The notes beneath the pieces were generated by a model. It had not been told where the DNA came from and searched no databases. It saw nothing but the letters and a program-made list of their open reading frames with translations. Made by a program: the position numbers and the translations under genes. DNA of 64,000 nt from the NCBI RefSeq assembly GCF_012271765.1, contig NZ_VRKO01000010.1, positions 814,884 through 878,883 on the forward strand. Reading direction: 5' to 3'. Positions 3,438 through 32,962 of the stretch are shown here, one piece after another. The DNA comes from Erwinia rhapontici. Lineage in GTDB: Bacteria > Pseudomonadota > Gammaproteobacteria > Enterobacterales > Enterobacteriaceae. The first letter of the stretch is position 1. Each line of letters starts with the position of its first letter.

Positions 3438-3444
3438 ACAGAGA

Positions 3445-10119: not shown

Positions 10120-10144
10120 GATACAGATACCTTGCTTGTGAACT

Positions 10145-10181
10145 TGCGTACTAGTTAACTGGTTCGCGGGAGAAAAGTCAA
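10145..10181 (-). promoter_or_regulatory. trp promoter and TrpR operator
   Basis: Minus strand: -35 TTGACT (10181-10176), 17-base spacer, -10 TTAACT (10158-10153), start near 10145. The operator palindrome covering the -10 (CCAGTTAACTAGTACGC) is nearly identical to the E. coli TrpR operator. Binding there by TrpR with tryptophan would block the promoter. Confidence 0.93.
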
Positions 10182-10251
10182 TACTCTTTTTCCCTTAGGG
10201 CAAAATGTCGGTATCATGCTGCGATATTTTTCTGTCTTTCCCGGAGTCGTT

Positions 10252-11783: not shown

Positions 11784-11788
11784 GCGTT

Positions 11789-11826
11789 AAATAACAGGCC
11801 GCTGAGAATGGGCCTGTTATTTATTC
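11789..11826 (+). terminator. Terminator after rnm-yciO
   Basis: AATAACAGGCC (11790-11800) and GGCCTGTTATT (11811-11821) form an 11-bp stem followed by TATTCTCATT. The A-rich 5' arm gives some U-run for the convergent gene as well. Confidence 0.85.
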
Positions 11827-11839
11827 TCATTCATTGTTA

Positions 11840-15056: not shown

Positions 15057-15069
15057 GATGAGAATGAAC

Positions 15070-15495: not shown

Positions 15496-15568
15496 TCCAA
15501 CAATGCTCACTCTTTCAATGGGTCGCACGGGTTATGGGGACGAGGTGTAGGGCTTTTTTTGGGCCTGC

Positions 15569-15610
15569 GCGGTGTAAGAAGGTTACACCGCAGTAAAAAG
15601 GCTGTATAAT
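15569..15610 (+). promoter_or_regulatory. rluB promoter with hairpin over the -35
   Basis: TTACAC (15583-15588), a 16-base spacer and a consensus TATAAT (15605-15610) lie about 90 bases before rluB. A perfect 9-bp inverted repeat GCGGTGTAA/TTACACCGC (15569-15577 and 15583-15591, 5-base loop) covers the -35. It could be a regulator site or the end of the ars transcript. Confidence 0.65.
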
Positions 15611-15698
15611 GACACGCGATACACACTTTAAGTTATTGAAAACAAAAGAAATTCTGTTTTCACCATGACGCCTGGGAAGGCGACACAGAGGTAGCTCC

Positions 15699-16592
15699 AT
15701 GAGCGAGAAATTACAAAAAGTTTTAGCACGCGCCGGGCACGGTTCCCGTCGTGAAATCGAAACCCTGATCTCTGCCGGACGCGTCAGCGTTGATGGCAAG
15801 CTGGCCACACTGGGTGACCGTGTTGAGCCAAGTGCCTCAATGAAGATCCGTGTTGACGGCCATATTGTTCCTGTCAGTGAATCCATTGCCGAAGTCTGCC
15901 GCGTACTGGCGTATTACAAGCCGGAAGGCGAGCTTTGTACCCGTAATGACCCGGAAGGCCGTCCAACGGTATTTGACCGTCTGCCGAAGCTGCGCGGTGC
16001 ACGCTGGGTGGCCGTTGGCCGTCTGGATGTGAACACCTGTGGTCTGCTGTTGTTCACTACCGATGGTGAACTGGCAAACCGCCTGATGCACCCGAGCCGT
16101 GAAGTTGAGCGCGAATATGCCGTCCGCGTATTTGGTGCCGTCGATGACGAGAAGATCAAACAGCTGAGCCGTGGCGTGCAGTTAGAAGACGGCCCGGCAG
16201 CCTTTAAAACCCTGAAGTTTACGGGCGGGGAAGGGATTAACCAGTGGTACAACGTCACGCTGACCGAAGGGCGCAACCGTGAAGTTCGTCGTCTGTGGGA
16301 AGCGGTCGGTGTGCAGGTGAGCCGTCTGATCCGTATCCGCTATGGCGATATCGACCTGCCGAAAGGTCTGCCGCGTGGCGGCTGGACAGAGCTGGAACTC
16401 CAGCCGACCAACTACCTGCGTGAGCTGGTCGGTCTGGCGCCGGAAACGGTCACCAAAGTCGCCGTGGAAAAAGATCGCCGCCGTACTAAAGCGAACCAGA
16501 TCCGCCGTGCGGTCAAGCGTCATACCACCACGACCACGAAAGCCAGCAAGCCGGGCAGCAATCGCCGCTCGTCTAAGCGTCAGCAAGGCTAA
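15699..16592 (+). CDS. rluB: 23S rRNA pseudouridine(2605) synthase RluB
   Basis: Isomerises U2605 of 23S rRNA to pseudouridine. The protein is 297 aa: an S4 RNA-binding domain (about residues 3-60, [21 protein letters not shown]), then the RsuA-type catalytic domain with the Asp in [23 protein letters not shown], and a basic C-terminal tail rich in Lys, Arg, Thr and Ser. The tail length is variable in this family. It has its own promoter and converges with btuR at a shared terminator. Confidence 0.96.
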
Positions 16593-16616
16593 CGTTGCGT
16601 GATGCAGTGTGTGATG

Positions 16617-16645
16617 TCAAAAGGGACCTTCGGGTCCCTTTTGCG
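16617..16645. terminator. Bidirectional terminator between rluB and btuR
   Basis: CAAAAGGGACC (16618-16628), loop TTCG and GGTCCCTTTTG (16633-16643). The UUCG tetraloop and flanking A and T runs make it a good Rho-independent terminator in both directions. Confidence 0.92.
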
Positions 16646-16654
16646 TTATAGCGC

Positions 16655-17248
16655 TTACCAGTCTATGCCCTGCTGTGCCTGGATCCCGGCATCAAAGGCA
16701 TGCTTAACCGGGCGCATTTCACTGACGGTATCCGCCTGCTCCAGAATCTCCCGATGACAGCCGCGGCCAGTGATAATCACACTCTGATGAACAGGGCGTT
16801 GTTGCAATGCCTCAAGCACCTCTTCCAGCGGCAGATAGTCAAAACTCACCATATAGGTCAGTTCATCCAGCACCACCAGGTCCAGCGTCGGATCCTGCAA
16901 CATGCGTTTGCCATGCTGCCACACGCTCAGGCAGGCGGCGGTGTCCGTTTCACGGTTTTGCGTGTCCCAGGTAAATCCGGTGGACATCACCTGAAACTCT
17001 ACGCCATGAGGTTCCAGCAGGTTACGCTCACCGTTGGGCCATTCGCCTTTGATAAACTGGATGACGCCGACACGCTTCTGATGCCCGACGGCACGCGTGG
17101 CGGTGCCAAACGCCGCCGTGGTTTTTCCTTTACCGTTACCAGTAAATACCATCAGAATACCGCGAACATCGGTCGCCGCCGCAATGCGCGCGTCCACCTG
17201 CTCTTTCAGTCGCTGCTGGCGCTGTTGATGACGATCTTCTGCGGCCAT
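16655..17248 (-). CDS. btuR: Cob(I)yrinic acid a,c-diamide adenosyltransferase BtuR/CobO
   Basis: Transfers the adenosyl group of ATP to the corrin cobalt, making adenosylcobalamin from salvaged corrinoids. It is 197 aa (E. coli 196). Seen: a P-loop MVFTGNGKGKTTAAFG near residue 33, then FIKGEWPNGER and VVLDELTYM. No other cobalamin synthesis genes lie nearby, consistent with salvage. The start overlaps the yciK stop by one base (TAATG). Confidence 0.95.
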   Translation of the reverse strand: MAAEDRHQQRQQRLKEQVDARIAAATDVRGILMVFTGNGKGKTTAAFGTATRAVGHQKRVGVIQFIKGEWPNGERNLLEPHGVEFQVMSTGFTWDTQNRETDTAACLSVWQHGKRMLQDPTLDLVVLDELTYMVSFDYLPLEEVLEALQQRPVHQSVIITGRGCHREILEQADTVSEMRPVKHAFDAGIQAQQGIDW

Positions 17249-18229: not shown

Positions 18230-19279
18230 GTGGACTTACTCTCTTATTATGGACTTTTTCTGGCAAAAACCGTCACCGTTGTGGTGGCGATTGTGGCCAT
18301 CGCCGTGGTGATCGCTAATCTTGCCATGCGGAAACGCGCCCAGAGCGGCCAGCTAAAACTGACCCACCTGGATGAACGCTACACGGAAATGCAGGATACG
18401 ATGCGGCTGGCGAAGATGAAGCCGTTACAGCAAAAACTGTGGCACAAAGAGCAGAAGAAAAAAGAGAAGCTGGAGGCAAAAACCGCCAAACAGCAGGCGA
18501 AGCTGGGGCGTCCACCGGCAGCGACGAAACCCACGCTGTATGTGATCGATTTCAAAGGCAGCATGGATGCCGGTGAAGTCTCCTCGCTGCGTGAGGAGGT
18601 GTCGGCGGTCATGGCGGTGGCGACGGCCGGGGATGAAGTCCTGCTGCGTCTGGAAAGCCCAGGCGGCGTGGTGCATGGTTACGGCCTGGCAGCCTCTCAG
18701 CTTCAGCGCCTGCGTGAGAAGAAAATCCCGCTGACGGTGGCCGTTGATAAAGTGGCGGCGAGCGGCGGTTATATGATGGCCTGTGTGGCGGATCGTATCG
18801 TTGCCGCTCCGTTCTCGATCATCGGATCCATTGGCGTGGTGGCGCAAATCCCTAACTTTAACCGTCTGCTGAAGCGCAATGAGATTGACGTTGAGCTGCA
18901 CACGGCCGGGGAATACAAACGTACGCTGACGCTGTTTGGTGAGAATACCGAGCAGGGACGCGAGAAATTCCGTGAGGACCTGAATGAAACGCACCTGCTG
19001 TTTAAGCAGTTTGTACACCAGATGCGTCCTTCGCTGGATATTGACAGTGTCGCGACCGGGGAGCACTGGTACGGGACGCAGGCGCTGGATAAAGGCCTGG
19101 TTGATGCCATCAGCACCAGTGATGATCTGATTATCGCTCAGATGGAGAAACACCAGGTGATTGGGGTGCGTTATGCGCGCCGCAAAGGGGTGATGAGCCG
19201 CTTTACCGATAGCGCGACGGGTAGTGTTGAACGTCTGCTGCTGCGTCTCTGGCAGCGTGGTGATAAACCGCTGCTGTAA
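18230..19279 (+). CDS. sohB: Inner-membrane peptidase SohB (S49 family)
   Basis: Membrane-anchored serine protease of the signal-peptide-peptidase A family, 349 aa as in E. coli. An N-terminal membrane segment (LAKTVTVVVAIVAIAVVIANLAM) is followed by a Lys-rich coiled region (about residues 60-95) and the protease domain, with the nucleophile Ser in KVAASGGYMMACVADRIVAAP. The start is GTG at 18230; the peptide DLLSYYGLFLAKT matches SohB. High-copy sohB suppresses htrA defects in E. coli. In E. coli yciN and topA follow; here a 10-kb block intervenes. Confidence 0.95.
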   Translation: MDLLSYYGLFLAKTVTVVVAIVAIAVVIANLAMRKRAQSGQLKLTHLDERYTEMQDTMRLAKMKPLQQKLWHKEQKKKEKLEAKTAKQQAKLGRPPAATKPTLYVIDFKGSMDAGEVSSLREEVSAVMAVATAGDEVLLRLESPGGVVHGYGLAASQLQRLREKKIPLTVAVDKVAASGGYMMACVADRIVAAPFSIIGSIGVVAQIPNFNRLLKRNEIDVELHTAGEYKRTLTLFGENTEQGREKFREDLNETHLLFKQFVHQMRPSLDIDSVATGEHWYGTQALDKGLVDAISTSDDLIIAQMEKHQVIGVRYARRKGVMSRFTDSATGSVERLLLRLWQRGDKPLL

Positions 19280-19314: not shown

Positions 19315-21342
19315 TTAACGGGCGTTCGCGTCCTGCGGCGTCAGTAGACACTGTTGTTCCAGTTCATCCCGCAGCAACACAATCGCGTTCAGCGTATTCA
19401 CCAGCCGCTCATGATCCGTACCCGCCAGTAATGCAGGCAGATGACGCAGCAGACGTGCCAGCCGTTCAAAGCCGCATCCATCCAGCGCCTGCGCCAGCGT
19501 TTCCGCTTCACGACAGGCACGCTGTTCCTGGTGGCACAACCCGTTGTGTAGCCACTGGATCAGCATCTGCTGGCACTGCTGTAGCAGGGCCAGAGGCAGC
19601 GGTAATGCCGGAGGGGATGCGCTGACAGGCAGCGCCTGAGATGGCGGGTTCCCGGCATTCAGCACCCAGGCACGCTGGCGCGTCATGATCACCAGCGGTT
19701 CCAGCACCAGAACACCGTCCACCACCGATACCCGACCGGAGACCTTGCAGGGCGGATCATCCTGCTGTTGCAGCAGGGCCGTCAGACAGTCAATGGCGCG
19801 TGGGGCCGAAGGCGATGCACTCAGTGATAACCGCAGAACATTTTCTTCACCTGCACCGCTGATAACATCAGCTTCCAGCGTTTGTCGCCCGGCATCCCAG
19901 CGGATATCCAGACATTCACCCAGCGGCAGGATAAACAGGCTATCACTGTGGCTAAGTGGTCGGGTGAAGGCGGGCGGGCGTTGTTGCAGATGGTGCCGCA
20001 GGGCTTCGACACCCGGCTGGCAAAGGGGGAACTCGGGCATCTCCCATGCCGAGGGCGTCAGGGGCGCGACGCTAGTCAGACGATCGCGCGCCGCCAGGTG
20101 TAATTCCCCGCGCGCATCGCGCTGTGCCGCCTGCGAGATGATTTGCCCACCTGCGAGGATTGAAGCCTGGAACCCCGCAATACGGCGCTGCCAGCCGGGT
20201 GCATTCTGCTGTTCTGCCAGCGGCCACTGGCGTGACAGATGCAGAACGCTGCCCGTATCCGGATCGGTAAACCAGATGCGTACCCCGTAATGGCGGTTGT
20301 CCTGCCAGCAATCCATGCCGAGTGATACCAGCCGCAGATGGTCGAGTTTGACCCGATCCTGAATCCCGAGGCCAACAATGTTGCGCCAGGGCTGTGCGGG
20401 CGTTTTGCCCTCCGAGGCCACGCGTGCCATCTCGCGGGCAGCCAGCACGCGAGCCGTTAACCCGGATAACTGACTGAGAAACGGCCCGGCACGATAATGG
20501 GATGCACGTTGGTGAAAGTGGTCGATCCCTTCAGTCATTTGCTGGAGTGACAGTGTCACCCAACGCCAGTTGGCCTGCTGAGCGCTGCGTTGTGCCTGAG
20601 TCAGTAGCGGAGCAAAGGTGACAGAAGGCTGGCTGAGCCCACGGCTCCATAGCTGGTGGCCCAGGTGACAAAGCTCTGCCAGATTGCCTTCACTCTCCGC
20701 CAGGTCAGTCACATCATCCTGCCGTTCGCCCTGTAATTGCCAGACGAGGTGTTCAAAACCCGGATGCTGTGCTTCGGCCGCGGCAAAGGCCTGCACCGCG
20801 AGAATGATATGTTCGCACAGCGTGCCTTCAACGCAGTCGCAACGGGCAAACTGCATGCTGCTGCGTGAAAAAAAACGCACATCGCTCATCGGCAGTTTCG
20901 CTGCGGGCACCTTTCCGGGTTCGCACTGGAGTTCTATCACCAGCCCTTTATCAGCCAGTTGCTGTGCGCGTTTTAGCGTTGCTGCAGGCAGTGAGCGTAG
21001 TTCCGCCAGCCACTCGCCGGGCTGCCAGCGGACAGAGGCGGCGGGGACTGGCGCTTCAGTGGCACACCGTTGTTGATAGCCGAGCACCAGCATAACCCGA
21101 TGGCGGCACATGTTGCTGGCCCCACAGCTACACTGTGCTTCTTTCAATGCCTGACCCTGGCTCAACCGGGTCTGGATGCCATCGCTAAACTGCGCTGTCA
21201 GCACGCCGTCCTTATCGCTGAACGAGGGCAGATTTCCGGCGGCGATCTCTTTCTGGCTGCGTTTAACGAAACCCGCATTGCTGAGGGCGATTAACGCCTG
21301 CGGGGTCAGTTCGAGCAGCTCGCTGCGTAGCATCTCACTCAT
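19315..21342 (-). CDS. yehQ: SWIM zinc-finger protein (YehQ-like)
   Basis: A 675-aa protein with two SWIM-type CxC-x5-CxH motifs near residues 70-80 (CSCGASNMCRH) and 170-180 (CDCVEGTLCEH). SWIM fingers bind DNA, RNA or protein partners. The remaining 500 residues show no motif I know. Architecture and neighbours match E. coli YehQ. The ATG overlaps the VWA gene stop (ATGA). It is the last gene of the five-gene cluster and ends against sohB at a shared terminator. Function unknown; a nucleic-acid or substrate-recognition role is a guess. Confidence 0.85.
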   Translation of the reverse strand: MSEMLRSELLELTPQALIALSNAGFVKRSQKEIAAGNLPSFSDKDGVLTAQFSDGIQTRLSQGQALKEAQCSCGASNMCRHRVMLVLGYQQRCATEAPVPAASVRWQPGEWLAELRSLPAATLKRAQQLADKGLVIELQCEPGKVPAAKLPMSDVRFFSRSSMQFARCDCVEGTLCEHIILAVQAFAAAEAQHPGFEHLVWQLQGERQDDVTDLAESEGNLAELCHLGHQLWSRGLSQPSVTFAPLLTQAQRSAQQANWRWVTLSLQQMTEGIDHFHQRASHYRAGPFLSQLSGLTARVLAAREMARVASEGKTPAQPWRNIVGLGIQDRVKLDHLRLVSLGMDCWQDNRHYGVRIWFTDPDTGSVLHLSRQWPLAEQQNAPGWQRRIAGFQASILAGGQIISQAAQRDARGELHLAARDRLTSVAPLTPSAWEMPEFPLCQPGVEALRHHLQQRPPAFTRPLSHSDSLFILPLGECLDIRWDAGRQTLEADVISGAGEENVLRLSLSASPSAPRAIDCLTALLQQQDDPPCKVSGRVSVVDGVLVLEPLVIMTRQRAWVLNAGNPPSQALPVSASPPALPLPLALLQQCQQMLIQWLHNGLCHQEQRACREAETLAQALDGCGFERLARLLRHLPALLAGTDHERLVNTLNAIVLLRDELEQQCLLTPQDANAR

Positions 21343-22475
21343 GATTGCAGGTTCTCCGCCAGCCAGGCCGCCAGTTCACCCGGCGTCATGGCTGCAATCT
21401 GTGCCCCGGCATTGACCAGCCGTTGGGCCATATCACGGTCATAGCTGGGGGCGGCTTTACTGTCGAGTGCGGCCAGTCCCAGCACTTTGCTGCCGCTCTG
21501 CACACACTGCCTGACCTGGTTGACCAACAGTGAGGGGGATCCGCCTTCGAAGAAATCGCTGACCAGTACAATCGCGCTTTTTTGCGGCTGTTCGATCAGC
21601 TGCCGCGCATACTGCACGGCTTTACCAATATCGGTGCCGCCACCCAACTGAACTTTCATCAGCAGGTCAACCGGGTCCTGCACGTCAGCCGTCAGATCCA
21701 CTACGCTGGTGTCGAATGCCACCAGATGGGTACGGATCCCTGGTAGCTGCCAGAGGCAGGCGGCCATCACGGCGGAGTGGATCACCGAATCCACCATCGA
21801 TCCGCTCTGATCGACCAGCAAAATGAGCTGCCATTTCTCGCTGTGGCGTTTTACCCGACTCATAAAGACCGGGGATTCAATAAACAGCCGTCCGCGCTGT
21901 GGGTCCCAGCGGTGCAGGTTATCACGCAGTGTGCCTTTAAAATCGAAGTTACGGGCAATGGCCACCGGCGATCGGCGTCGGCGGTCGCGGGTGCCGGAAA
22001 ACGCCTGCCGGACCTCAGTCGCCAGCCGCGCCATAATCTGTTCCACCACCTGACGCACCAGACGTCGGGCGGCCTGTAACACCTGTGGATTCATCAGGTG
22101 TTTGGTGTGCAACACCGCGCGCAGCAGGCCCTCAGAGGGGGCGATGCGTTCCAGTACCTCAATGTTGGTGACCACATCATCGATGCCGAAGCGCAATACG
22201 GCGTCACTTTCCAGCCGTTCAATCACCTCTGCAGGGAACAGTTGATGGATGGCGTTGATCCATTGCGGGGTGGTGAGCTGCGATCCCTCGCTGCCGCCGT
22301 GGCGCTCACCGCGTTGCAGGCGCTGCGGATCGCGACCGTACAGCCACTCCAGGGCGTTATCCACCGCGCGGGCATGTTCATCAAGCCCGCCGAGACTGCT
22401 TTCCGCAGCCTCACCGAGCATCAGCCGCCAGCGTTGTAGCTCAGTGCTGGTTAACATATCGGAGAGTTCAGGCAT
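21339..22475 (-). CDS. yehP: VWA-domain protein (YehP-like)
   Basis: A 378-aa protein with a C-terminal von Willebrand A domain. The metal-ion-dependent adhesion site is complete: DQSGS in LLVDQSGSMVDS (about residue 220), Thr in GGGTDIGKA and Asp in VLVSDFFEGG. The N-terminal half is helical, with an Arg-rich patch (GTRDRRRRSP) before the VWA domain. VWA proteins of this class pair with MoxR AAA+ ATPases as adaptors, and the MoxR gene is two genes upstream. It corresponds to E. coli YehP (378 aa). It starts 9 bases after the DUF5682 gene and overlaps the SWIM gene by 4 bases. Confidence 0.9.
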   Translation of the reverse strand: MPELSDMLTSTELQRWRLMLGEAAESSLGGLDEHARAVDNALEWLYGRDPQRLQRGERHGGSEGSQLTTPQWINAIHQLFPAEVIERLESDAVLRFGIDDVVTNIEVLERIAPSEGLLRAVLHTKHLMNPQVLQAARRLVRQVVEQIMARLATEVRQAFSGTRDRRRRSPVAIARNFDFKGTLRDNLHRWDPQRGRLFIESPVFMSRVKRHSEKWQLILLVDQSGSMVDSVIHSAVMAACLWQLPGIRTHLVAFDTSVVDLTADVQDPVDLLMKVQLGGGTDIGKAVQYARQLIEQPQKSAIVLVSDFFEGGSPSLLVNQVRQCVQSGSKVLGLAALDSKAAPSYDRDMAQRLVNAGAQIAAMTPGELAAWLAENLQS

Positions 22476-22484
22476 CCGGGGTCC

Positions 22485-24827
22485 TCACAGTATGCCCCAG
22501 GCGCGGAGCGCATCGACGGCGCGCTGCTCCTGCTGCTGATGACGAAGAAAATCGGCAGGTGCACAGGCATCCGGCAGCGGCGTTTGTAACAGATGTTCTG
22601 GCAAGTGGGAGAGCTGGTAATGCGCCAGCACCTGACGTGCAAGCGCTGCCCGTTCGCGCGGCGGTAGCCACGCCAGTGCGGCACGCAGATCGGGCAGGGC
22701 GGCGATAAACTGATCGTCCGCCAGCTGCATCAGTTGCTGATTAAACCCGGCCACAAAGGCCGGATGTGATGCCAACTGGTGGCGTGCCAGCGCGATGAGT
22801 CCGTGCAGCGCCTCGCCCAGCCGTGCCGGAGGCAGTGCCGCCAGCAGCGCCAGTGCCGCCTCTGCATCGGCGCTGGGATGTTCAAGACGAATTAACGCAC
22901 CCAGCGCCGCGCCGCGACTGAGCGCACTCGCCTCCGCTGCACGGCAGCGGCGTTCCAGCACGGCAAGCGCACGCGGCAACAGCACCAGAGCGCGATCGGG
23001 CTGCGGGTGACTCTGCTCATCGCGCAAAATATGGCACAGTGCCTGCCAGCTGTGCAGATGGGCATTGATCTGCGTGGCATCAATCAGCCCGGTCGACTCC
23101 GCCAGCCACAATGTGCGGTCTATCGCTGCCCGTAGAGTGGTGTGCAGGATGGCGGCGTCGCGCATTCCGTTGAAGGTGTCGTGGCGCCACAGCGCGTAGA
23201 GGATCTCCATCGCGGGGCCCATCTGCTCAAACTGACTCTCCAGCGCGATCTGCTGCTCCAGCCGGGAGAGCAGTTGCAGGCTGAATGTGGACAGCCCGGC
23301 GAGGGCGGCGCGTTGCAGCCAGGCGGCCAGTGACGCAATGTCATCGGCCCCGGCCATCGCGGATTCCAGACGGTTGCGCGCGGCCTCGATCAGCGTGGCG
23401 CCATAGCGTGCGGCTTCGATCAGGGCGGCATGTTGCTGCAACGGCCGGGTCAGCGTCCACTGCTCTTCACCGTCACCGGAAAGCGCCAGCGTGTGGCCCT
23501 GCTGGCAGAGAATGCCGGGGATATCCAGCACCGCAAGGCGATGCAGCACCTGACTTTGCCCTAATCCTTCCGCATCAAAGCGGTTAAGGGTCAGGGTGGA
23601 CGGGAGCGTAATGCTGGCGTGCGCAAGCTCGCGTATCACATCCTGGGGTAAGGGGGGTTGTGGTGTGTCGGCGGCCAGTTCGCCAAAGCGATGTCCTGCC
23701 AGCACGTCTACCAGGGTGATCAGAATCGGATCCGTGCCCGCCTGTAACTGACCGCGATAGCTCCACGGTAATGGTGTATGCAGGGCTTCTTTGATCAGAC
23801 TGCCCGCCAGCGCATCCAGCCAGTCGTTGCGCAGCGGTAGCCGGTGCCCGCGCAGTGCCGCCAGCCCCCGCGCCATGGAGACGACATTGGTCATATCCGC
23901 GGTTGAGGCGGGCAGATGCTGGCGGCGCAGATGGGTCAGAACGGTTTCCAGCAGACGCTGCCCGGCCTGTTGCAGCCCGTATTGCCAACACCAGTGCTGC
24001 CACACCGGCGCGGGCATCCCGGAGAGATAGCCTGCCAGCACATCCAGCCGCTTTTCACTGTAGGGGGTCAGATAGCTGCCGGTGACGGCACCGGTAAGGG
24101 GTGGGTCAGGCAGCCCGGGTTCCCTGGTATCTGAAACGCTGCGCCACAGACGGGCAAGGACTGGAGCATGCCAGCCTCCGCAGACCACCAGCACCGGGCC
24201 GTTATCCTGTGCCATCGCCCAGGCGATCCAGCGAGCCATATAAGCTTCGCGCTGCCGATCCTGCGGGCTGCCAGGGCAACCGTCACGCAGTTGCTGAAAC
24301 CACCGATCCAGCGTGCGGGGGAGTTCGTTATGCTGATCGTCATCTTCGAACAGATGGTCCCATAACGCATCGCTGCTCTCCATCCCGCAGGCCGCCATCA
24401 TCGCCTGCTGGCGCTGATGATAGTGCTGGCTGTCGCTGTCGTCTTCGTCATCGTCGGTTGTCTGCGCCCAGATCGGCACATCGATAAAACGCGTTTCGGC
24501 CTTCAGCCGTTGTGCGGCCAGCAGTGCCTGCCATTCAGGTGACCATTCGGCAAACGGTGTCCAGGCACCGATACCGGGCGTATCGTGATCCTGAAACTGG
24601 CAGTAACCGTAAATCGCGATCGGCAACTGATGCGCCAGCCGCAGTTCATCGAGTCGGGGGTTAAAATCCGCCGGGCCTTCAATCAATACCCAGGCCGGGC
24701 GTAGCTGTTCGATGCTGTGCTTAACCCACCTGGCGCAGGCCGGGCTGTGGTGGCGGATGCCGAGGATGAGCGGTTCACCGGCCGGGGGCATCGTGACTGG
24801 AGGACGATCTGTTGCCGGGAGGGTCAT
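22485..24827 (-). CDS. yehM: DUF5682 family protein (YehM-like)
   Basis: A 780-aa protein of uncharacterised family DUF5682, equivalent to E. coli YehM (759 aa). The family signature is at the N-terminus: ILGIRHHSPACARWV followed by VLIEGPADFN. A second His-containing block, VLVVCGGWHAPVLARL, is near residue 225. The rest is Ala- and Leu-rich and probably helical repeats. The spaced His and Glu near the start recall metal-dependent TIKI/TraB/EreA-type proteins, but I cannot prove this. It overlaps the MoxR gene stop by 4 bases, so the two are probably coupled. Confidence 0.87.
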   Translation of the reverse strand: MTLPATDRPPVTMPPAGEPLILGIRHHSPACARWVKHSIEQLRPAWVLIEGPADFNPRLDELRLAHQLPIAIYGYCQFQDHDTPGIGAWTPFAEWSPEWQALLAAQRLKAETRFIDVPIWAQTTDDDEDDSDSQHYHQRQQAMMAACGMESSDALWDHLFEDDDQHNELPRTLDRWFQQLRDGCPGSPQDRQREAYMARWIAWAMAQDNGPVLVVCGGWHAPVLARLWRSVSDTREPGLPDPPLTGAVTGSYLTPYSEKRLDVLAGYLSGMPAPVWQHWCWQYGLQQAGQRLLETVLTHLRRQHLPASTADMTNVVSMARGLAALRGHRLPLRNDWLDALAGSLIKEALHTPLPWSYRGQLQAGTDPILITLVDVLAGHRFGELAADTPQPPLPQDVIRELAHASITLPSTLTLNRFDAEGLGQSQVLHRLAVLDIPGILCQQGHTLALSGDGEEQWTLTRPLQQHAALIEAARYGATLIEAARNRLESAMAGADDIASLAAWLQRAALAGLSTFSLQLLSRLEQQIALESQFEQMGPAMEILYALWRHDTFNGMRDAAILHTTLRAAIDRTLWLAESTGLIDATQINAHLHSWQALCHILRDEQSHPQPDRALVLLPRALAVLERRCRAAEASALSRGAALGALIRLEHPSADAEAALALLAALPPARLGEALHGLIALARHQLASHPAFVAGFNQQLMQLADDQFIAALPDLRAALAWLPPRERAALARQVLAHYQLSHLPEHLLQTPLPDACAPADFLRHQQQEQRAVDALRAWGIL

Positions 24828-25903
24828 GGCAGCCGGTGACGCGCCTGGTAATACGCCTGCCAGTGCGCTTCTTTACGGTTACCGACGCGCTGCTCAAAGT
24901 AGCGTTGCAGGCGTGCGCGATCGTCTTCATTATCTTTGACGATGGTGCCACCAATGCAGTCAACCAGGTCAGCCGGTTCACCGGCGCGCTGTTGCAGGAA
25001 CCAGGCGCGCACGCCCACCGCATGTGCCACATTGACCGCTTCAGCCGTCGACATAATGGCGTTCAGGCTGTCCATCGCGCTTTTTTTCTCTCCACCGCTG
25101 CGCAGATCGCGGAAGGTTTGCACCAGCAGTTCCAGCACGTCATCCGGCACTTTATGCGGGATGCCGCTGTGCGTCAGCAGACGTGCAGACGCAGAAGAGA
25201 CCAGCGCCAGCTCCTGCTCGAAATTCATAATCGGGAACACGGTTTCGAAGTCAAAGCGGCGTTTCAGCGCGGCACTCATCTCGTTAACGCCACGATCGCG
25301 GGTGTTGGCGGTGGCGATAATATTGAAGCCTTCACGGGCATACAGCTGGCTGTCATCACCGCTCAGTTCCGGCACGGTCATCACGCGGTCAGACAGCATC
25401 CCAAGCAGGCAGTCCTGCACTTCGAGCGGTGCGCGGGTGATCTCTTCGAAACGTACGATTTTACCCTCACGCATGCCCTGATAAAGCGGGGCCGGGACCA
25501 GGGCATCAGTTGATGGCCCCTGGTTAATCAGTAAGGCATAGTTCCAGGCGTATTTAATCTGATCTTCTGTCACCGATGCGCCGCCCTGAATGGTCAGCCC
25601 GGCATCACCGCTGATGGCGGTTGCCAGCAGCTCTGACAGCAGCGATTTTGCGGTGCCGGGTTCACCGACCAGCATCAGACCGCGCCCGGTGGCCAGCGTC
25701 ACCAGCATGCGCTCAACGCTGGCGATCGATGTGACGACTTTTGCACTGATATCCCGGGCATCATCGCCCAGGATAAATGCCCGTGCTGCCGGCAGACTGA
25801 GTTGCCAGCCGGGGGGCAGGGGGCCACTGTCATCCTGTTTCAGCCGCGCCAGTTCCGCAGCGTAAAGTACCGCGGCCGGGGGCCGCTGCAATACATCAGA
25901 CAT
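24824..25903 (-). CDS. yehL: MoxR-family AAA+ ATPase (YehL subfamily)
   Basis: A 359-aa AAA+ ATPase equivalent to E. coli YehL (362 aa), which names a MoxR subfamily. Seen: Walker A LVGEPGTAKSLL (about residue 80), Walker B in KIVRFEEITRAP with acidic residues, sensor 1 IIATANTRDRGVNEM and the arginine-finger region ALKRRFDFE. The N-terminus LQRPPAAVLYAAELARL is family-like. MoxR ATPases with VWA partners remodel or activate target complexes. It lies between the WGR giant (29-base gap) and the DUF5682 gene (4-base overlap). Confidence 0.93.
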   Translation of the reverse strand: MSDVLQRPPAAVLYAAELARLKQDDSGPLPPGWQLSLPAARAFILGDDARDISAKVVTSIASVERMLVTLATGRGLMLVGEPGTAKSLLSELLATAISGDAGLTIQGGASVTEDQIKYAWNYALLINQGPSTDALVPAPLYQGMREGKIVRFEEITRAPLEVQDCLLGMLSDRVMTVPELSGDDSQLYAREGFNIIATANTRDRGVNEMSAALKRRFDFETVFPIMNFEQELALVSSASARLLTHSGIPHKVPDDVLELLVQTFRDLRSGGEKKSAMDSLNAIMSTAEAVNVAHAVGVRAWFLQQRAGEPADLVDCIGGTIVKDNEDDRARLQRYFEQRVGNRKEAHWQAYYQARHRLP

Positions 25904-25932
25904 GGTCTTTCCTTAACAAACGGGTTCAGGCA

Positions 25933-28900
25933 TTAATCAAACAGCGCATCAATATCACTCAGCATTTCGCTGGCGGTAATCGGATGCAGTTGTGAGAACG
26001 GATGCTTTTGCGGGTGCTGCTGGCCCCAGCCATACTGGTGGGCATCGCCGTGCCACAGCCAGATGCTTGCCAGCGACTGCTCCTTGTTAAATTCATCCGG
26101 TGCCATGCCAACGCCCAGGCCTTCACCCATTTCCAGCACCAGCGTCAGGTCCCCCAGGGGTTTTAACATCCAGCAGATCCATCCCGCATCCTGTGGCACG
26201 CCACGCAGCCAGCCTTTGCTGGTCAGTCCGGCCAGACGTCCACTTGGGCAGAGCCTGCCCTGCCAGCGTTGTAAATCGGTGGCTTCACGCTCTTCAGCGG
26301 TCAGCAGATAGCGGTTACGATCCAACTGGCGGAAGGGCGGTAGCAGTTCATAATCGGCAAACAGCTGACCAAAGGCAGCGGCATCTTCGGGCGGCATTTC
26401 CAGAATATGCGGAATACCGATTTCAACAGCGTTATGCGGCAGTGTGAACAGGTCATCGTCTGCGGTGCTGTAACTGTTGTCTTCCGCGACGCGGAAGCAG
26501 CTCAGCAACTGGTTATCGGCATCATAGGCACCCCACACCAGGCGGCGGGTCAGGTGACCGACCAGCGGATGACCCACCAGGAACTGGATGAACTGGGCTT
26601 CTGTCCAGCGACGGCGCAGGCACATTGCGCTTTCCAGACGGGCGATCTGCTGGCTGGCGATGGTGCGCGCATCTTTTTTCAGTAATTTGAAGCGATTGAC
26701 CGCATCTGTCGCCAGCGCAGCATCGTCATTCTTGTTCGGCTTTGGCAGGTCTTTCAGGCGGCTGCCGCTGCTGTCGCGTACGAAAGGTTTGAGTGATTCA
26801 TCAAAACTGACGCTGAACTGGCGCGGACCGAAATCAAGCAGCAATGAGCCATTGTCATCCAGCCCCAGATCTGGTGCCAGGCGGTCTTCCAGCTCTGCGA
26901 CACTCAGTTCGCGTTTTTCGGCAATCTGGCTGATTTTTTCACGCGCCCGCTCCTGCAGCGCTTTGAACTTCAGCTTCTGCGCAATACCGTTCAGCTGCAT
27001 CAGCGCGATATCCGAGCCAATATCCGCCAGAATATCCAGACCCGCAACGGCACGTTTATGCTGGGATTCACCCGGCCAGCTGCGGATCAGCGGGGTTAAC
27101 TGACGGGCGATATCATCGTTGCCGAACAGCCCGAGCGTGCTGAACGCCCAGCCCTCTTTTGATGGCGCTGAAGCGGCCATCCACGCGGTGTACAGATCCC
27201 AGGCAAACGCCGCCAGTGAGTCCGGCGTACAGGCTTCTTTGACCTGGACCAGCCCCGGATACAGGCCATTTTCCGTCGGGAATCGTAGCATGGTGCCGAG
27301 GTGCATCAGGGCATCCTCCGGCAGGGCTTTACCGTTATGGAGCAGAGGACGTGTCCACAGCACGGGTTGCCAGAAGTCCGGCAATGCAGGGCGCTTCGCC
27401 GGGAAATCGTCCAGTGGGTCAAGCTGCACCAGGGCATTGACCGCTGCCAGCACCTCGGGTTGCGCATAGCGTCCAGCCACCGCTTCCAGCAGTTCCTGAT
27501 AGCCGTTATCCAGCAGCAGACGCAGCGCCAGACGCGCGTGATCCTGCGCTTCTCCGGCTTTGCCGAAAGCCACCGGCAGCAGGCCAGCTACCGCATGTTC
27601 CGGATACTTCAGCAGCCAGTTACGCGCCTCTGCACGCAGGGTTTTCAGTTTGGAAAACGCCCGTGAAACCAGCGGTGCGAGGTCGGTGCTACCCACGCAG
27701 AGTGCGACGGGTAGCGCTTCCTGCGGCTGGCGGCCAACACTGTTGATAAAGCCGGGCAGCCCGTCCAGGCCGAAATGTGCCATGACCAGCGCAATACCGG
27801 TGTGATGCTCCGTACTGAGCGCATTCCACAGGTTGAGGCCTTTTTCACGCGGCAACCCGGGTAAAATAGTGAGATTCCAGTCACTGGCGTAATGCGAGTG
27901 GTTGGTCGCCCAGTCGGCAATAAGCTGACTGTAATTATCCTCGTCATAGGCCTGCACCGCTGTGTCTGGCAATGACTGGTTCCATGAATTGAAGCCAAAA
28001 CGCGCGAGGATCTCTTCTGTCTTCAGACCCTCCACCTTGAGCTTACGATGATTCGACCACATCGACAGCTGGTCTTCTGGCACGCCGTCGAACTGTGGCG
28101 CGACAGGCTGCACCGATAACGTCAACTGCGGAATGGTGCCGACCTGTTTTTTGACGGTCCACGGCGGTGACACGAGGATCGCCGGTAACATCTCCGCGCT
28201 GGCGCAGTCGGTTTTAACGTTCAGCTGCGCAAGACTGCTCTCCACCAAAGCGCGTTCCTCTGCGGAGAGCCAGGGGGCAACCTCAGCAGCCAGCTGCGGT
28301 TGAGTGTGCAGCAGGGCATGAAGCTGACTACGCCACAGCGCATCCTCTTTACCGTTCAGCAGACGAACCAGGGCCGCGAACGCGGCGTGAGGGAAGCGTT
28401 TACTGGCTTTTGCTGCGCGCTCATAGCTGCGTTTTCCCTTGCCGGCAGCGTCAATTAACATCATGAGTGCCTGCGGATGGTTGATGTGCATCAGCACTTC
28501 GCCACAGCGATCGCCGTGAGCATAGGGCGCCAGGCGCGGTAGCGCGCGCACACCCTGCTCCAGCAGCACAGTGCTGGTCAGTATTTCGCCGTAATACCAG
28601 CTATCAAACAGTTCTAACGCCTGGTAATACTCCAGTACATGCAGGGTATCCTCATCCGTCGCGGTCATTTTCAGCCACTCCAGCGCCGTCAGATCCCGGT
28701 TGCGTCCTGCACGCAGGGTGATTTCATCGGCCAGTTCGGGCCGCTCAGGCAGCAGCAATGACACCAGCGGCTGACGCCAGAGTGGGATCAGCGGCAGGGC
28801 GGCGACCAGGCGGTCTGCGCAGCGTTGCCACAGGTCTGGCTGTGCCGCAGAGAGGTGCCAGCGCAGACGCATTTCATAATCAACGATATTCTGCTGGTAA

Positions 28901-29751
28901 CCCGCAGGTGGGTTATCCGCCGGATAAAACGAGATGTTGCGCGAGCGGTAATCCCGGTCGAGACCAATCTGCAGGCTGGCGATGATCATCTCGACGGCAT
29001 ACTCCAGGCCATAGCTGGCCACGATGGCATCGATCAGCAGCGAAGTGTCGCGCCCCGCATAGGTCTGATTGATTTTCATCAGGGCCGCAGCGGCCATCGG
29101 GGAGTCCTGCGGCAGCGGTTTTGCCTCGGCGAGGCAGGCCTGCGCGATGGCGAACGCCTGCTGCCAGCTGCTATCGCAGCGACTGCCGTCCAGGACCATG
29201 CCGCCGTTCTTTTTGGTTTCCTGGCTCAAGACCTTCAGACGACGTAACTGTTCTGCGGGTTCTTCGACTTTACCGATGGCCGGGAGTGGCCTGTCACGGT
29301 GGCTGAGTGCCAGTACGGACAGCTTCTGCGGCAGCGTAATGGCATCATCTTCTGTCAGCCACAGCGGTGCCGCAGGGTTGACGACGGCGCTGAGGGGAGC
29401 GGCTACGGGGGAAGCGGTGAGAGGCTCGTCAGCCGTTGGCGCGGCGGACGGTGTTTTTTTCGGACTGGCTGGCGCCACGGCTGCGGGTGGCACGGCCTGG
29501 ACTGAGGCTGCACTGCCAGCAGAAGCGATGCTCTGTTGTTTATCTTCACCTGCTGCCAGATAGCCTTTGCGGCTCTTCTCTTTAATGAGCTTCTCGCACG
29601 CTTTTCTGGCCTGTTCATCATCATCAAAGCTTTTTATCTGGCTTTGCCCCTGAGTTCCCACACGTCCCCAACTGAGATGGAGTTCCTGTTGTTTTTGTAC
29701 AATGGTCCAGAATTTGTGGGATTTTTCATCCTGATAAATCAAGGTGGTCAT
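25933..29751 (-). CDS. yehI: WGR and DUF4132 domain protein (YehI/MolR-like)
   Basis: A very large protein, 1272 aa from MTTLIYQDEKSHKFW. Residues about 1-80 form a WGR domain (LSWGRVGTQGQSQIKSF), a fold found in PARPs and bacterial nucleic-acid-linked proteins. Residues about 88-155 are an Ala/Pro/Ser-rich linker. A long helical region follows, and the C-terminal part is the DUF4132/MolR domain (about 1040-1230; LVWGAYDADNQLL, FTLPHNAVEIGIPHILEM). E. coli YehI is about 1210 aa. I chose the ATG at 29751 (GGAAACCAC ahead), although the frame stays open to 29937. It is first gene of the cluster; function unknown. Confidence 0.88.
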   Translation of the reverse strand: MTTLIYQDEKSHKFWTIVQKQQELHLSWGRVGTQGQSQIKSFDDDEQARKACEKLIKEKSRKGYLAAGEDKQQSIASAGSAASVQAVPPAAVAPASPKKTPSAAPTADEPLTASPVAAPLSAVVNPAAPLWLTEDDAITLPQKLSVLALSHRDRPLPAIGKVEEPAEQLRRLKVLSQETKKNGGMVLDGSRCDSSWQQAFAIAQACLAEAKPLPQDSPMAAAALMKINQTYAGRDTSLLIDAIVASYGLEYAVEMIIASLQIGLDRDYRSRNISFYPADNPPAGYQQNIVDYEMRLRWHLSAAQPDLWQRCADRLVAALPLIPLWRQPLVSLLLPERPELADEITLRAGRNRDLTALEWLKMTATDEDTLHVLEYYQALELFDSWYYGEILTSTVLLEQGVRALPRLAPYAHGDRCGEVLMHINHPQALMMLIDAAGKGKRSYERAAKASKRFPHAAFAALVRLLNGKEDALWRSQLHALLHTQPQLAAEVAPWLSAEERALVESSLAQLNVKTDCASAEMLPAILVSPPWTVKKQVGTIPQLTLSVQPVAPQFDGVPEDQLSMWSNHRKLKVEGLKTEEILARFGFNSWNQSLPDTAVQAYDEDNYSQLIADWATNHSHYASDWNLTILPGLPREKGLNLWNALSTEHHTGIALVMAHFGLDGLPGFINSVGRQPQEALPVALCVGSTDLAPLVSRAFSKLKTLRAEARNWLLKYPEHAVAGLLPVAFGKAGEAQDHARLALRLLLDNGYQELLEAVAGRYAQPEVLAAVNALVQLDPLDDFPAKRPALPDFWQPVLWTRPLLHNGKALPEDALMHLGTMLRFPTENGLYPGLVQVKEACTPDSLAAFAWDLYTAWMAASAPSKEGWAFSTLGLFGNDDIARQLTPLIRSWPGESQHKRAVAGLDILADIGSDIALMQLNGIAQKLKFKALQERAREKISQIAEKRELSVAELEDRLAPDLGLDDNGSLLLDFGPRQFSVSFDESLKPFVRDSSGSRLKDLPKPNKNDDAALATDAVNRFKLLKKDARTIASQQIARLESAMCLRRRWTEAQFIQFLVGHPLVGHLTRRLVWGAYDADNQLLSCFRVAEDNSYSTADDDLFTLPHNAVEIGIPHILEMPPEDAAAFGQLFADYELLPPFRQLDRNRYLLTAEEREATDLQRWQGRLCPSGRLAGLTSKGWLRGVPQDAGWICWMLKPLGDLTLVLEMGEGLGVGMAPDEFNKEQSLASIWLWHGDAHQYGWGQQHPQKHPFSQLHPITASEMLSDIDALFD

Positions 29752-30364
29752 GTGGTTTCCATTTGTGTTGAACAGGACATCGATAGCGCAGCGATATCCG
29801 TAAAAGAGAAGCGATTCTCTGCCTCCGGTCACTTTTTTTTTGCAGCAGCGGCGGTAGACCGGTGGGTCAATGTAATCAACGCCAGAAAGGGGTTCAAGCG
29901 GAAAAATCTCGCTTTTATCAATCGGTTGATTATCCAAATATCATATCCGCAGGCAAATCGTTTTTTTCTTCCTTTATAAGGCAGTCGTCTCAGTGAACAA
30001 ATGCTGTGCTTCGTGGTGCCCGGGCGTTGCGGCGAATAGCACAAATTTATCTCTTTTTGCTGCCTTTCCTGGCGTAAATGGGGGCTTGATGCTAATTAAG
30101 TTGCGTAACAGATTTTATCAGGTAGAGTGTGGGCGTTTCGGGTTCCGGGCGTAAAACAGACTTTACGCTCTGTTAGAGATTCGCTTAACAGGTTGTAAAA
30201 AGTACCGTTAATCAACTGGTTGCAACGTGCGTTATTATGTTGGAATGGATAAAAAGTTAACCGGGTTGAATCTGTTATCCCGATAACCCTATCGTTAGTG
30301 CGCGATGTGACGAGTGCAAAACGGCACACTTACTCTCGGATGTTTTAATCAGGTAAAGGTAACT
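29752..30364. other. Intergenic region between the WGR gene and topA
   Basis: 613 bases carrying divergent promoters. Candidate topA-side elements include TTGCGT (30101-30106) with TAGAGT 16 bases later (30123-30128). A perfect 7-bp inverted repeat GCGTAAA/TTTACGC lies at 30150-30169. E. coli yciN, which sits upstream of topA, is absent. On the minus strand TATGAT (29945-29940) is a possible -10 for the WGR gene, without a good -35. The topA ribosome site is AGGTAAAGGTAACT. Confidence 0.5.
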
Positions 30365-32962
30365 ATGGGAAAAGCTCTCGTAATAGTTGAGTCCCCGGCA
30401 AAAGCCAAAACGATCAATAAATATCTCGGTAATGACTTCGTGGTGAAATCCAGCGTAGGCCATATCCGTGATTTGCCGACCAGTGGATCAACAGTTAAAA
30501 AGAGCGCTGACTCTACAACCAGTAAAACAACCAAAAAGGTCAAAAAAGACGAAAAGACGGCGTTAGTTAACCGTATGGGCGTCGACCCTTATCACGGCTG
30601 GGATGCGAATTATCAGATCCTGCCGGGCAAGGAAAAAGTTGTCGCTGAACTCAAGGCGCTGGCTGAGAAAGCTGACCATATCTATCTCGCAACGGACCTT
30701 GACCGCGAAGGGGAAGCCATTGCCTGGCACCTGCGGGAAGTGATCGGTGGCGATGAATCGCGCTACAGCCGCGTGGTGTTTAACGAAATCACCAAGAATG
30801 CGATTCGCCAGGCATTTGAAAAGCCGGGTGAACTGAATATTGACCGTGTTAATGCCCAGCAGGCGCGCCGCTTTATGGACCGCGTTGTGGGTTACATGGT
30901 GTCTCCACTGCTGTGGAAAAAAGTGGCACGTGGTCTTTCCGCTGGCCGTGTTCAGTCGGTCGCCGTTCGACTGGTGGTTGAGCGTGAGCGCGAAATCAAA
31001 GCGTTTGTTCCGGAAGAATACTGGGATCTGAATGCGGACCTGACCACGCCGAAAGGGGTGGATTTGCCGATGCAGGTGACGCATCAGGGCGATAAACCGT
31101 TCCGTCCGGTAAACCGCGAGCAGACCTACGCCGCTGTCAGCCTGCTGGAGAAAGCCCGCTATGTGGTTGCCGATCGTGAAGATAAGCCCACCAGCAGCAA
31201 GCCCGGCGCACCGTTTATTACCTCTACGCTGCAGCAGGCGGCCAGTACCCGTCTTGGCTTTGGCGTGAAGAAAACCATGATGATGGCCCAGCGTCTGTAT
31301 GAAGCCGGTCATATCACCTATATGCGTACTGACTCAACCAACCTGAGCCAGGATGCTGTCGGCATGGTGCGCGGCTACATCGAAGATGAGTTCGGCGCGA
31401 AATACCTGCCGAAAGCCGCCAACGTCTACAGCAGCAAAGAGAATTCCCAGGAAGCGCATGAAGCCATCCGTCCATCGGATGTGAAAGTGCAGTCTGAGCA
31501 GCTAAAAGATATGGAAACCGACGCGCAGAAGCTGTATCAGCTGATCTGGCGTCAATTTGTTGCCTGCCAGATGATGCCGGCGCAATACGATTCCACCACG
31601 CTGACGGTGGAAGCGGGCGATTTCAAACTGAAGGCGAAAGGGCGCACGTTGCGCTTTGACGGCTGGACGCGTGTGATGGCTGCGCTGCGTAAAGGTGATG
31701 AAGATCGCGTGCTGCCTGCTGTGGAAGTGGGGAGTGAGCTCAGTCTCCAGCAACTGGTGCCAAGCCAGCACTTCACCAAACCACCGGCCCGCTTCAGCGA
31801 AGCCTCGCTGGTTCGTGAGCTGGAAAAACGCGGTATCGGCCGTCCTTCTACCTATGCCTCTATTATCTCGACCATTCAGGATCGTGGATATGTGAAGGTA
31901 GAAAGCCGTCGATTCTATGCGGAAAAAATGGGTGAGATCGTTACCGACCGTCTGGAAGAGAACTTCCGTGAGCTGATGAACTATGACTTCACCGCGCACA
32001 TGGAAGACAACCTCGACAAAGTCGCGAAGAATGAAGCCCAGTGGAAAGCCGTACTGGATAAGTTCTTCAGTGAGTTCAGCGATCAACTGGCGCAGGCAGA
32101 GAAAGATCCTGAAGAAGGCGGTATGCAGCCTAATCAGATGGTCCTGACTTCAATTGACTGCCCAACCTGTAGCCGCCAGATGGGTATCCGTACTGCCAGC
32201 ACCGGGGTATTCCTCGGGTGCTCTGGCTATGCGTTGCCGCCGAAAGAGCGTTGTAAGCAGACCATTAACCTGATTCCTGAGAATGAAGTACTGAATATTC
32301 TCGAAGGTGATGACGCGGAAACGAACGCACTGCGCGCCCGTCGCCGCTGCCAGAAATGTGGCACTGCGATGGACAGCTATCTGATCGACCCTCAGCGTAA
32401 GCTGCACGTCTGTGGTAACAACCCAGAATGTGATGGTTATGAGATCGAGCAGGGCGAGTTCCGCATCAAGGGTTATGACGGTCCGATCGTTGAGTGTGAG
32501 AAATGTGGTTCCGAAATGCACCTGAAAATGGGTCGCTTTGGTAAGTACATGTCCTGCACCAATGACGATTGCAAAAATACGCGTAAAATTCTGCGCAGCG
32601 GCGAAGTCGCGCCACCGAAAGAAGATCCGGTGCCGTTACCTGAGTTGCCGTGTGAGAAGTCAGACGCTTATTTCGTTCTACGTGATGGTGCTGCTGGTGT
32701 ATTCCTCGCGGCCAATACGTTCCCTAAATCGCGTGAGACCCGCGCGCCGCAGGTGGAAGAGCTGCAACGCTTCCGCGACCGTTTGCCGGAAAAACTGCGT
32801 TACCTGGCCGATGCGCCAGCGACCGATGAAGAAGGTAACAAAGCCGTCGTGCGTTTCAGTCGCAAAACAAAACAGCAGTACGTCAGCACAGAAAAAGACG
32901 GAAAAGCCACTGGCTGGTCTGCTTTCTTTGTTGATGGTAAATGGGAAGTCACCAAGAAGTAA
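30365..32962 (+). CDS. topA: DNA topoisomerase I
   Basis: Type IA topoisomerase relaxing negative supercoils, 865 aa as in E. coli. The Toprim domain carries [15 protein letters not shown] and the acidic triad [13 protein letters not shown]. The active-site Tyr lies in [12 protein letters not shown] near residue 319. The C-terminal part has Cys4 zinc motifs (CPTCSRQ with the CSGY region; CQKCG/CGNNPEC; CEKCG/CTNDDC). I chose ATG 30365 from the strong AGGTAAAGG site and the canonical GKALVIVES start. A terminator hairpin follows and cysB is next. Confidence 0.98.

Follow-up and report, generated by a model that had tools for sequence, protein, structure and literature searches.

MoxR ring ATPases with a VWA partner are described as NorQ-NorD, CbbQ-CbbO and RavA-ViaA, where the pair acts on a dedicated enzyme (PMC9976466, in the part of the text available). 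A YehL subfamily of MoxR ATPases has been named and includes the orthologue of the ATPase considered here; the passage on it gives neither a function nor a set of partners (PMC3893208). A constant MoxR-VWA core together with a variable part is also found in the MoxR-vWA ternary conflict systems (eLife 2020). Here we analyze a five-gene operon from Erwinia rhapontici (contig NZ_VRKO01000010.1), lying in a stretch of 64,000 nucleotides that is called the window below. Its genes encode a MoxR ATPase, a CoxE-type VWA protein, a DUF5682 protein, a double-SWIM zinc-finger protein and a large protein with WGR and DUF4132 domains. The five families and the gene order are shared with the yehI-yehL-yehM-yehP-yehQ set of E. 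coli, a correspondence which was proposed in the first-pass annotation and which holds, with the E. coli set located elsewhere, at metG-btsSR. Identities to the E. coli proteins are 87.6% for MoxR, 79.1% for VWA, 64.2% for DUF5682, 55.8% for SWIM and 54.4% for the nearest DUF4132 protein.

We tentatively propose that the DUF4132 protein recognizes a variable target, and that MoxR and VWA couple this recognition to a DUF5682 hydrolase, all in one machine. The families are known by name, and the system itself is undescribed in the searchable literature. About 95% of the complete E. coli genomes carry the motor, yet the papers listed in the literature searched include no study of what the set does. 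If the DUF4132 arm were the recognition subunit, AAA+ remodelling would be joined to a TIKI-type hydrolase in the surveillance of invaders or damage.

Five genes in one unit with a changing fifth slot

The first-pass annotation, made from the letters alone, described five packed minus-strand genes with intact key motifs, inserted between sohB and topA. Coordinates, Pfam matches and junctions bear this out. Five tightly spaced genes occupy the minus strand at 19315-29751 (Table 1). At two of their junctions the genes overlap by 4 bases, and at the other two they are 9 and 29 bases apart. They are bordered on the left by a gene that we take to be sohB, in line with synteny, and on the right by one that is presumably topA. 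None of the five proteins reaches an NCBIfam cut-off. The SWIM protein has two C-x-C-x5-C-x-H motifs, the VWA protein has DQSGS, GGTD and VSD, which resemble a metal ion-dependent adhesion site, and the MoxR protein has GEPGTAKS, TANTRDRG and ALKRRF, with R-x-E-E as its Walker B motif. By its Walker A and B motifs, sensor 1 and similarity to YehL, the window MoxR falls in the YehL subfamily. Walker A is kept in 92/93 MoxR relatives, R-x-E-E in 93/93 and the sensor in 90/93, while a simple pattern finds DxSGS in 88, GGT in 86 and the third motif in 51 of the 91 VWA relatives. The Walker B acidic pair is E-E throughout this MoxR group (93/93); AAA+ proteins usually have D where this group has E.

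The distribution of the unit was surveyed by a GTDB genome scan with the DUF5682 alignment, which gave at least 591 candidate stretches, 578 of them confirmed. The best 80 were kept and, together with one E. coli locus and 17 further loci, make up a set of 98, of which 86 have full flanks; as the closest 80 of a larger set, the sample is biased to relatives of the window, and its sources may overlap. Judging from the organism names, we assign the loci to Actinomycetota, Pseudomonadota, Planctomycetota, Bacteroidota, Bacillota, Cyanobacteriota and other phyla. MoxR, DUF5682, VWA and SWIM genes occur all together in 81 of the 86 full-flank loci, and both MoxR and VWA are near DUF5682 in 82. One or more parts are missing from the other five (L038, L063, L077, L091 and L102), among which the sequence of L038 ends before any SWIM gene could appear. 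The fifth gene is DUF4132 in 56 of the 86 loci, DUF5691 in 19, neither in five and both in one. Pfam confirms four of five candidate DUF5691 proteins, and the fifth (L118) shows weak HEAT repeats only. The SWIM proteins of the DUF4132 and DUF5691 forms are related (94.8% over 149 columns in profile comparison), and no kinship between DUF5691 and DUF4132 themselves was detected by the same means (2.1%). DUF4132 was matched in 65 loci, by a single frame in 38, by two in 15 and by three in 12, counts in which some frames are split, overlapping or on opposite strands. The five genes therefore form one unit, whose fifth slot is filled by DUF4132, at times in tandem, or by DUF5691.

Some loci depart from the usual layout. 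In Kitasatospora phosalacinea (L063, 9986-13690) a single frame of 1234 amino acids fuses DUF5682 and VWA. The locus with both fifth genes, in Chitinophaga niastensis (L105, 5919-16326), is a hybrid operon with the order SWIM-DUF5691-MoxR-DUF5682-VWA followed by DUF4132. A rare arrangement is seen in Lentzea flava (L102), where the VWA gene (1158-2300) stands apart from, and on the opposite strand to, MoxR-DUF5682 (8956-12160).

Selection on the window operon was examined in four congeners, for which ratios of non-synonymous to synonymous divergence (dN/dS) were obtained at a high synonymous divergence (dS), mostly 0.4-1.6. They are 0.02-0.05 for MoxR, 0.03-0.05 for VWA, 0.10-0.11 for DUF4132, 0.13-0.17 for DUF5682 and 0.13-0.20 for SWIM, beside 0.03-0.06 for the flanking sohB and 0.001-0.025 for topA. 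All five genes are kept under purifying selection. The set is more than a chance neighbourhood, because it recurs in E. coli and other genomes and because dN/dS is 0.02-0.20 in all five genes. The guanine-cytosine (GC) content of the operon is 59-64%, with third-position GC of 0.65-0.70 against 0.66 in the adjoining sohB. A foreign origin by composition was rejected on this closeness to sohB, and composition alone is thus no mark of foreignness here. The repeats listed for the window are all short and imperfect, and none of them bounds the operon as mobile-element flanking repeats would.

Of 37 genomes in the genus, four have DUF5682 above its family cut-off and a fifth has a sub-threshold match; DUF4132 is present in the same four among 36 genus members. 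The three other carriers, which were fetched, have the operon at the sohB-topA site. Of the 33 congeners without the operon 20 were fetched, and in all 20 a distance of 420-667 base pairs separates the sohB match from that of topA, so the site is empty, in agreement with the insertion claimed beforehand. The four carriers also have the highest sohB identity in the genus (100, 95, 91 and 91%), which suggests a single insertion inherited within a clade as the simplest history. More widely, DUF5682 exceeds the cut-off in 6/149 genomes of the taxonomic family and 12/299 genomes of a phylum sample, the genome of the window counted in both. The E. coli strains read have the operon at metG-btsSR, as do two loci of the window's taxonomic family (L025 and L026), whose metG is 94-95% identical to that of E. 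coli; three other loci (L022, L023 and L024) have no tested metG-side or sohB-side gene within 20 kb. The operon thus occupies different sites in different lineages and is stable inside a lineage. This neighbourhood survey had been recommended in the first-pass annotation, and it shows genes that stay together and change their locus between lineages; they are neither separate in most genomes nor always at one fixed locus. Carriage by phages was confirmed for 0 of 11 viral-contig candidates; one weak match was found among 50,697 phage records, and 32 plasmid records out of 72,556 have a match, including some as large as a chromosome.

DUF4132 as candidate arm and DUF5682 as candidate enzyme

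The E. coli strains read have two or three DUF4132 genes ahead of yehK or yehL, some of them broken. Across 5426 E. coli genomes, at a coverage of at least 80%, yehL is found in 5160 (5125 records at 95-99% identity) and the MoxR-DUF5682 stretch in 5161. Of the DUF4132 genes in the reference strain, the second reaches the same coverage in 3989 genomes and the first in 1604. A conserved stretch of 391 bases from the second gene has matches in 5282 genomes and a central stretch of the same length in 3390; the latter comprise 3329 records at 95-99% identity, 60 from 99% upward and one at 90-95%. At least 1892 genomes therefore have the conserved part without a recognizable central part, which was replaced, diverged or lost. 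Since intermediate identities are nearly absent, the central segments point to discrete allele types.

Second-gene alleles of five strains, the K-12 record L243 being kept out, share 75.9-94.0% protein identity with dS of 0.16-0.76, beside a dS of 0.02-0.22 for metG. Identities of the other proteins are 98.6-99.2% for YehL, 97.1-98.9% for YehP, 95.9-97.6% for YehM, 97.6% for YehQ (one pair) and 91.6-98.7% for YehI. By segments of 100 columns, identity in the second DUF4132 protein falls to 43% in residues 1-350 and to 35% around residues 500-700, and all segments from residue 697 onward are at least 90% identical. YehI has a milder variable patch at 350-600, with a low of 68%. The window DUF4132 protein shows a similar, blunter profile among the four congeners, with an N-terminal minimum of 40% and 80-92% from residue 698. 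This variation would fit a protein made of a docking part and a recognition part. The metG-DUF4132 region of E. coli has also received a resistance transposon and is disrupted in 184 ST131 isolates, according to the section seen of PMC9334617. In E. coli FDAARGOS_448 (L244, 13805-17497) two incomplete frames lie between the second DUF4132 gene and yehP, with yehL unlisted; the motor appears to be lost there while the DUF4132, VWA and SWIM genes stay.

The DUF5682 alignment has 60 rows, the window and 59 loci; the other 39 of the 98 loci are E. coli, redundant, short or frame-broken (e.g. L044). Its invariant residues are mostly in the first 280 positions and include R25 and H26, E50, S96, P97 and E98, D116, E161, R193, E194 and M197, G217 and H220. 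The profile of residues 1-295 matches that of ChaN (25 members) in hhalign with a probability of 80.5%, a score of 47.1 and 185 columns; the highest score from 60 column shuffles was 20.9, and the reversed profile gave 22.1. ChaN itself matches erythromycin esterase (Ere) at 85.8% and a 10-row TraB set at 83.4%, so that the tie of DUF5682 to the TIKI superfamily goes through ChaN. With messier family sets DUF5682 reached 15.1% against TraB and 39.0% against ChaN, and the MoxR and SWIM controls 0.3%. TIKI enzymes have two His, two Glu and one basic residue, as stated in the part of PMC6254334 consulted. By motif order, H26 and H220 would be the two His of this pattern, E50 one of its Glu and R193 its basic residue. 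Because the N-terminus resembles ChaN far above shuffles, it is probably a TIKI/esterase-fold enzyme domain.

In the mechanism that we propose, the MoxR ring ATPase and the CoxE-type VWA protein would form a remodelling pair. DUF5682, with its predicted N-terminal TIKI/ChaN-fold hydrolase, could be the dedicated client or effector within the operon, and the SWIM zinc-finger protein could be an adaptor that stays constant. The exchangeable recognition arm would be the large DUF4132 protein, whether or not it carries WGR. The conserved C-terminal part of this arm may dock on the machine, and its variable N-terminal and central parts may bind the changing target, possibly a protein or nucleic acid that is foreign or linked to damage. 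Once the target is recognized, ATP-driven MoxR-VWA remodelling would follow, which would activate DUF5682 or load it with metal or substrate. A contact between MoxR-VWA and DUF5682 is suggested by the DUF5682-VWA fusion of Kitasatospora phosalacinea. All physical contacts, the activity of the enzyme, the nature of the target and the sequence of events are part of our proposal.

Several observations weigh against this proposal. DUF5682 gave 0.33% against Ere (7 members), inside the shuffle range, 0.1% against a 13-row TraB set, and 7.7% with a score of 29.0 against the curated 10-row TraB set (maximum of 40 shuffles, 18.2). A profile search of the PDB returned no TIKI protein among 11 matches, all of them ATP synthase b subunits with E values of 0.036 or more, and DUF5682 has I or V where the TIKI pattern places its first catalytic Glu. 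The genomes without a central DUF4132 match may have lost that part instead of replacing it, the reference strain is atypical (46-60 records reach 99% when its second DUF4132 gene or a stretch of that gene is searched), and the five strains were picked from a similarity-spread list and overstate the diversity. The dN/dS of the E. coli alleles is 0.17-0.30, that of divergent alleles and not above 1, and these alleles may have been imported by recombination from divergent lineages, with no part in recognition. The operon neighbourhood is no clear defence island.

Table 1. Positions in the window of the operon genes, their domains and motifs, and the flanking genes
Feature	Position	Strand	Support
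SWIM gene, double-SWIM protein, 675 amino acids	19315..21342	-	PF04434, E 2.8e-5
Two SWIM motifs C-x-C-x5-C-x-H, residues 71-81 and 168-178	21100-21132 and 20809-20841	-	Motif check
VWA_CoxE gene (CoxE-type VWA), 378 amino acids; proposed MoxR partner	21339..22475	-	PF05762, E 4.9e-65
DUF5682 gene, 780 amino acids; proposed hydrolase or client	22485..24827	-	PF18934, E 1.1e-92
Predicted TIKI/ChaN-like domain of DUF5682, residues ~18-280	23988..24776	-	Alignment and hhalign against ChaN
MoxR/AAA_5 gene, AAA+ ATPase of the YehL subfamily, 359 amino acids	24824..25903	-	PF07728, E 1.4e-33
WGR+DUF4132 gene, first of the operon, 1272 amino acids; proposed recognition arm	25933..29751	-	PF05406 and PF13569
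WGR domain, residues 7-68	29548..29733	-	PF05406, E 1.5e-18
DUF4132 domain, conserved C-terminal part, residues 996-1181	26209..26766	-	PF13569, E 3.5e-51
sohB, left flank of the insertion site	18230..19279	+	Open reading frame
topA, right flank of the insertion site	30314..32962	+	Open reading frame

Elsewhere in the window, two adjoining plus-strand genes at 13767-15495 look like genes for arsenite efflux and arsenate reduction, with a pump and a reductase as their likely products.

Regulation and rival explanations

LexA sites were scored with a matrix made from 18 E. coli sites (own scores 15.6-27.6) at 20 of 21 listed loci. All three metG-site loci have a LexA-like box ahead of their first DUF4132 gene, with scores of 16.8 in E. 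coli, 14.2 in L025 and 24.1 in L026; background stretches as high number 0/83, 0/48 and 0/48, respectively. A weaker score of 11.0 was obtained in Proteus hauseri (0/53 background stretches as high). A stretch of 38 bases holding the E. coli box is found in 5058/5426 genomes, and molR is counted as a LexA-regulated or SOS gene in the parts seen of PMC11039860 and PMC3978071. A link to damage at the metG site thus appears well supported. The window copy is without such a box (best score 3.5, with 57/164 background stretches as high), and no clear one was scored at L022 (8.1), L023 (1.4), L024 (6.6), L130 (5.3), L131 or L132 (7.4, inside a coding region). A simple LexA pattern was found 5 times in 79 loci, where 2.31 would be expected, and two of these five lie in coding sequence; two other box types were found 0 and 1 times in the same loci. 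The LexA-type box as a general property of the loci is therefore unsupported. The link to damage suggested in the first-pass annotation thus appears at the metG-site copies and is unproven for that of the window.

These results bear directly on an explanation of the operon as an SOS-induced DNA-damage machine, in which WGR and SWIM bring the complex to damaged DNA and MoxR-VWA strips, or DUF5682 cleaves, bound proteins. The metG-site boxes and the published listing of molR speak for it, and by analogy so may the DUF4132/WGR genes of D. radiodurans, which rise upon depletion of DdrO; the same genes are not raised in irradiated irrE-deleted cells (PMC8533742, both from the part consulted). We consider this explanation unlikely, given the loci without a clear box, the L025 score below the lowest training site, the pattern not clearly enriched over the 79 loci, and the presence of WGR in only 15 of 37 DUF4132 proteins scanned, all 37 of which have the DUF4132 domain. 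The last count also leaves WGR unsupported as the key sensor and weakens the argument built on it in the first-pass annotation. It is similarly doubtful that the operon encodes an enzyme-maturation chaperone, with MoxR-VWA inserting metal or cofactor into DUF5682, or into a client encoded elsewhere, in the way that NorQ-NorD serves nitric oxide reductase, and with DUF4132 and SWIM as scaffolds in a metabolic or stress role. Known MoxR-VWA pairs do mature or activate specific enzymes (PMC9976466, PMC13036017, as far as seen). The VWA protein is of the CoxE type with DxSGS kept in 88/91, MoxR and VWA have dN/dS like sohB, yehL is present in most E. coli genomes, DUF5682 is fused to VWA once, and yehM is among the genes mutated in copper-evolved E. 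coli (PMC12409786, seen in part). Left unexplained by maturation are the divergence of the N-terminal and central segments of DUF4132 inside one species, the variation in DUF4132 copies, and the patchy presence in the taxonomic family.

A role in conflict with invaders was the other half of the first-pass proposal. The variation of DUF4132 is conflict-like, but the five window proteins match no PADLOC family at E up to 1 and the set is near-core in E. coli (5161/5426). Among operon neighbours, 115 proteins (of 215 candidates) yielded hits to 15 PADLOC models, 12 of these by one protein each, a count without a matched control. Because it is nearly core at its usual E. coli site, the system is unlike a typical mobile defence island. 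Membership in the described MoxR-vWA ternary (VMAP/iSTAND/FtsH) conflict systems is unsupported and most improbable: the idea of a MoxR-VWA core is shared and there is a weak similarity to the beta-propeller MoxR family bpMoxR (E 0.0017, 17.9 bits, below the cut-off of 27), but Pfam finds no VMAP, iSTAND or effector family in the five proteins, nor an FtsH third component, PADLOC gives no match, and the text of the eLife 2020 paper contains no SWIM, WGR, YehL, Tiki or DUF5682. The old name molR, with the title of Lee 1990 as it appears in a reference list, points to a regulator of molybdate metabolism, which we regard as extremely unlikely; DdrO depletion raised the DUF4132 genes with molybdate genes such as moeA or moeB unchanged (PMC8533742, same part), and Pfam finds no molybdenum family in the five proteins.

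The coupling of a variable DUF4132 arm to a DUF5682 hydrolase through MoxR-VWA may be extended to a rather doubtful, wider claim. It would be a new recognition system spanning phyla, with a fixed machine of MoxR-VWA, SWIM and TIKI hydrolase and with exchangeable, allelically diverse, sometimes tandem DUF4132/DUF5691 arms, SOS-wired in E. coli, in which the AAA+ ring turns the hydrolase on once the arm has sensed a product that is foreign or comes from damage. If true, bacteria would have a new type of system for immunity or damage surveillance, one that K-12 has partly lost. Three handles are offered for its study, namely the candidate fold of DUF5682, DUF4132 as a candidate specificity module with a map of its variability, and the caution about part-loss in K-12.

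Comparison with known systems

The E. coli yeh operon differs from that of the window in its metG-btsSR site in place of sohB-topA, in the added small gene yehK, in its two or three DUF4132 genes and in its LexA box. In K-12 part of the set is lost. The record NC_000913.3 (L248) has the first DUF4132 gene split into yehF and the pseudogene yehH (2475-6270), with yehI intact, and yehQ is annotated with 614 codons (15101-16945) against 666 in strain 2016C-3878; in a second MG1655 record (L243, 13001-16796) the first DUF4132 gene is frameshifted and yehQ has an internal stop. This part-loss may be a reason why the function stays unknown. The genome-reduced strain DGF-298 is without the block from molR to yehQ (PMC10652928, part seen), so the block is dispensable in the laboratory. 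According to a doubling-time table in PMC4245954, seen in part, deletion of molR1 slows growth only in combination with loss of lepA, and yehM and yehQ are among the mutated genes of copper-evolved and butanol-tolerant E. coli in the parts consulted of PMC12409786 and PMC6442406. The matches listed for yehL, yehP, yehI, yehM, yehQ, DUF4132, DUF5691 and SWIM-MoxR-vWA include no functional study, and DUF5682 is not mentioned in the literature searched, which covers few subscription papers and leaves the absence unproven.

DUF5682 resembles the TIKI superfamily (ChaN, erythromycin esterase and Tiki/TraB) in its ChaN-like profile and its collinear His, Glu and His motifs, and differs from it by the missing first Glu, by a long C-terminal part, and by its place beside MoxR and VWA in 82 of 86 loci. 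SWIM, DUF4132/DUF5691 and DUF5682 partners are not mentioned for NorQ-NorD, CbbQ-CbbO and RavA-ViaA in the part of PMC9976466 available, and the present group is further set apart from these pairs by the YehL-type Walker B R-x-E-E. In the ternary conflict systems the variable domains are fused to vWA, whereas the variable part here is DUF4132, with no VMAP found in the window proteins. What is new here is a MoxR-VWA-type system for which an enzyme and a variable recognition arm can both be proposed, joined in a mechanism that we put forward tentatively.

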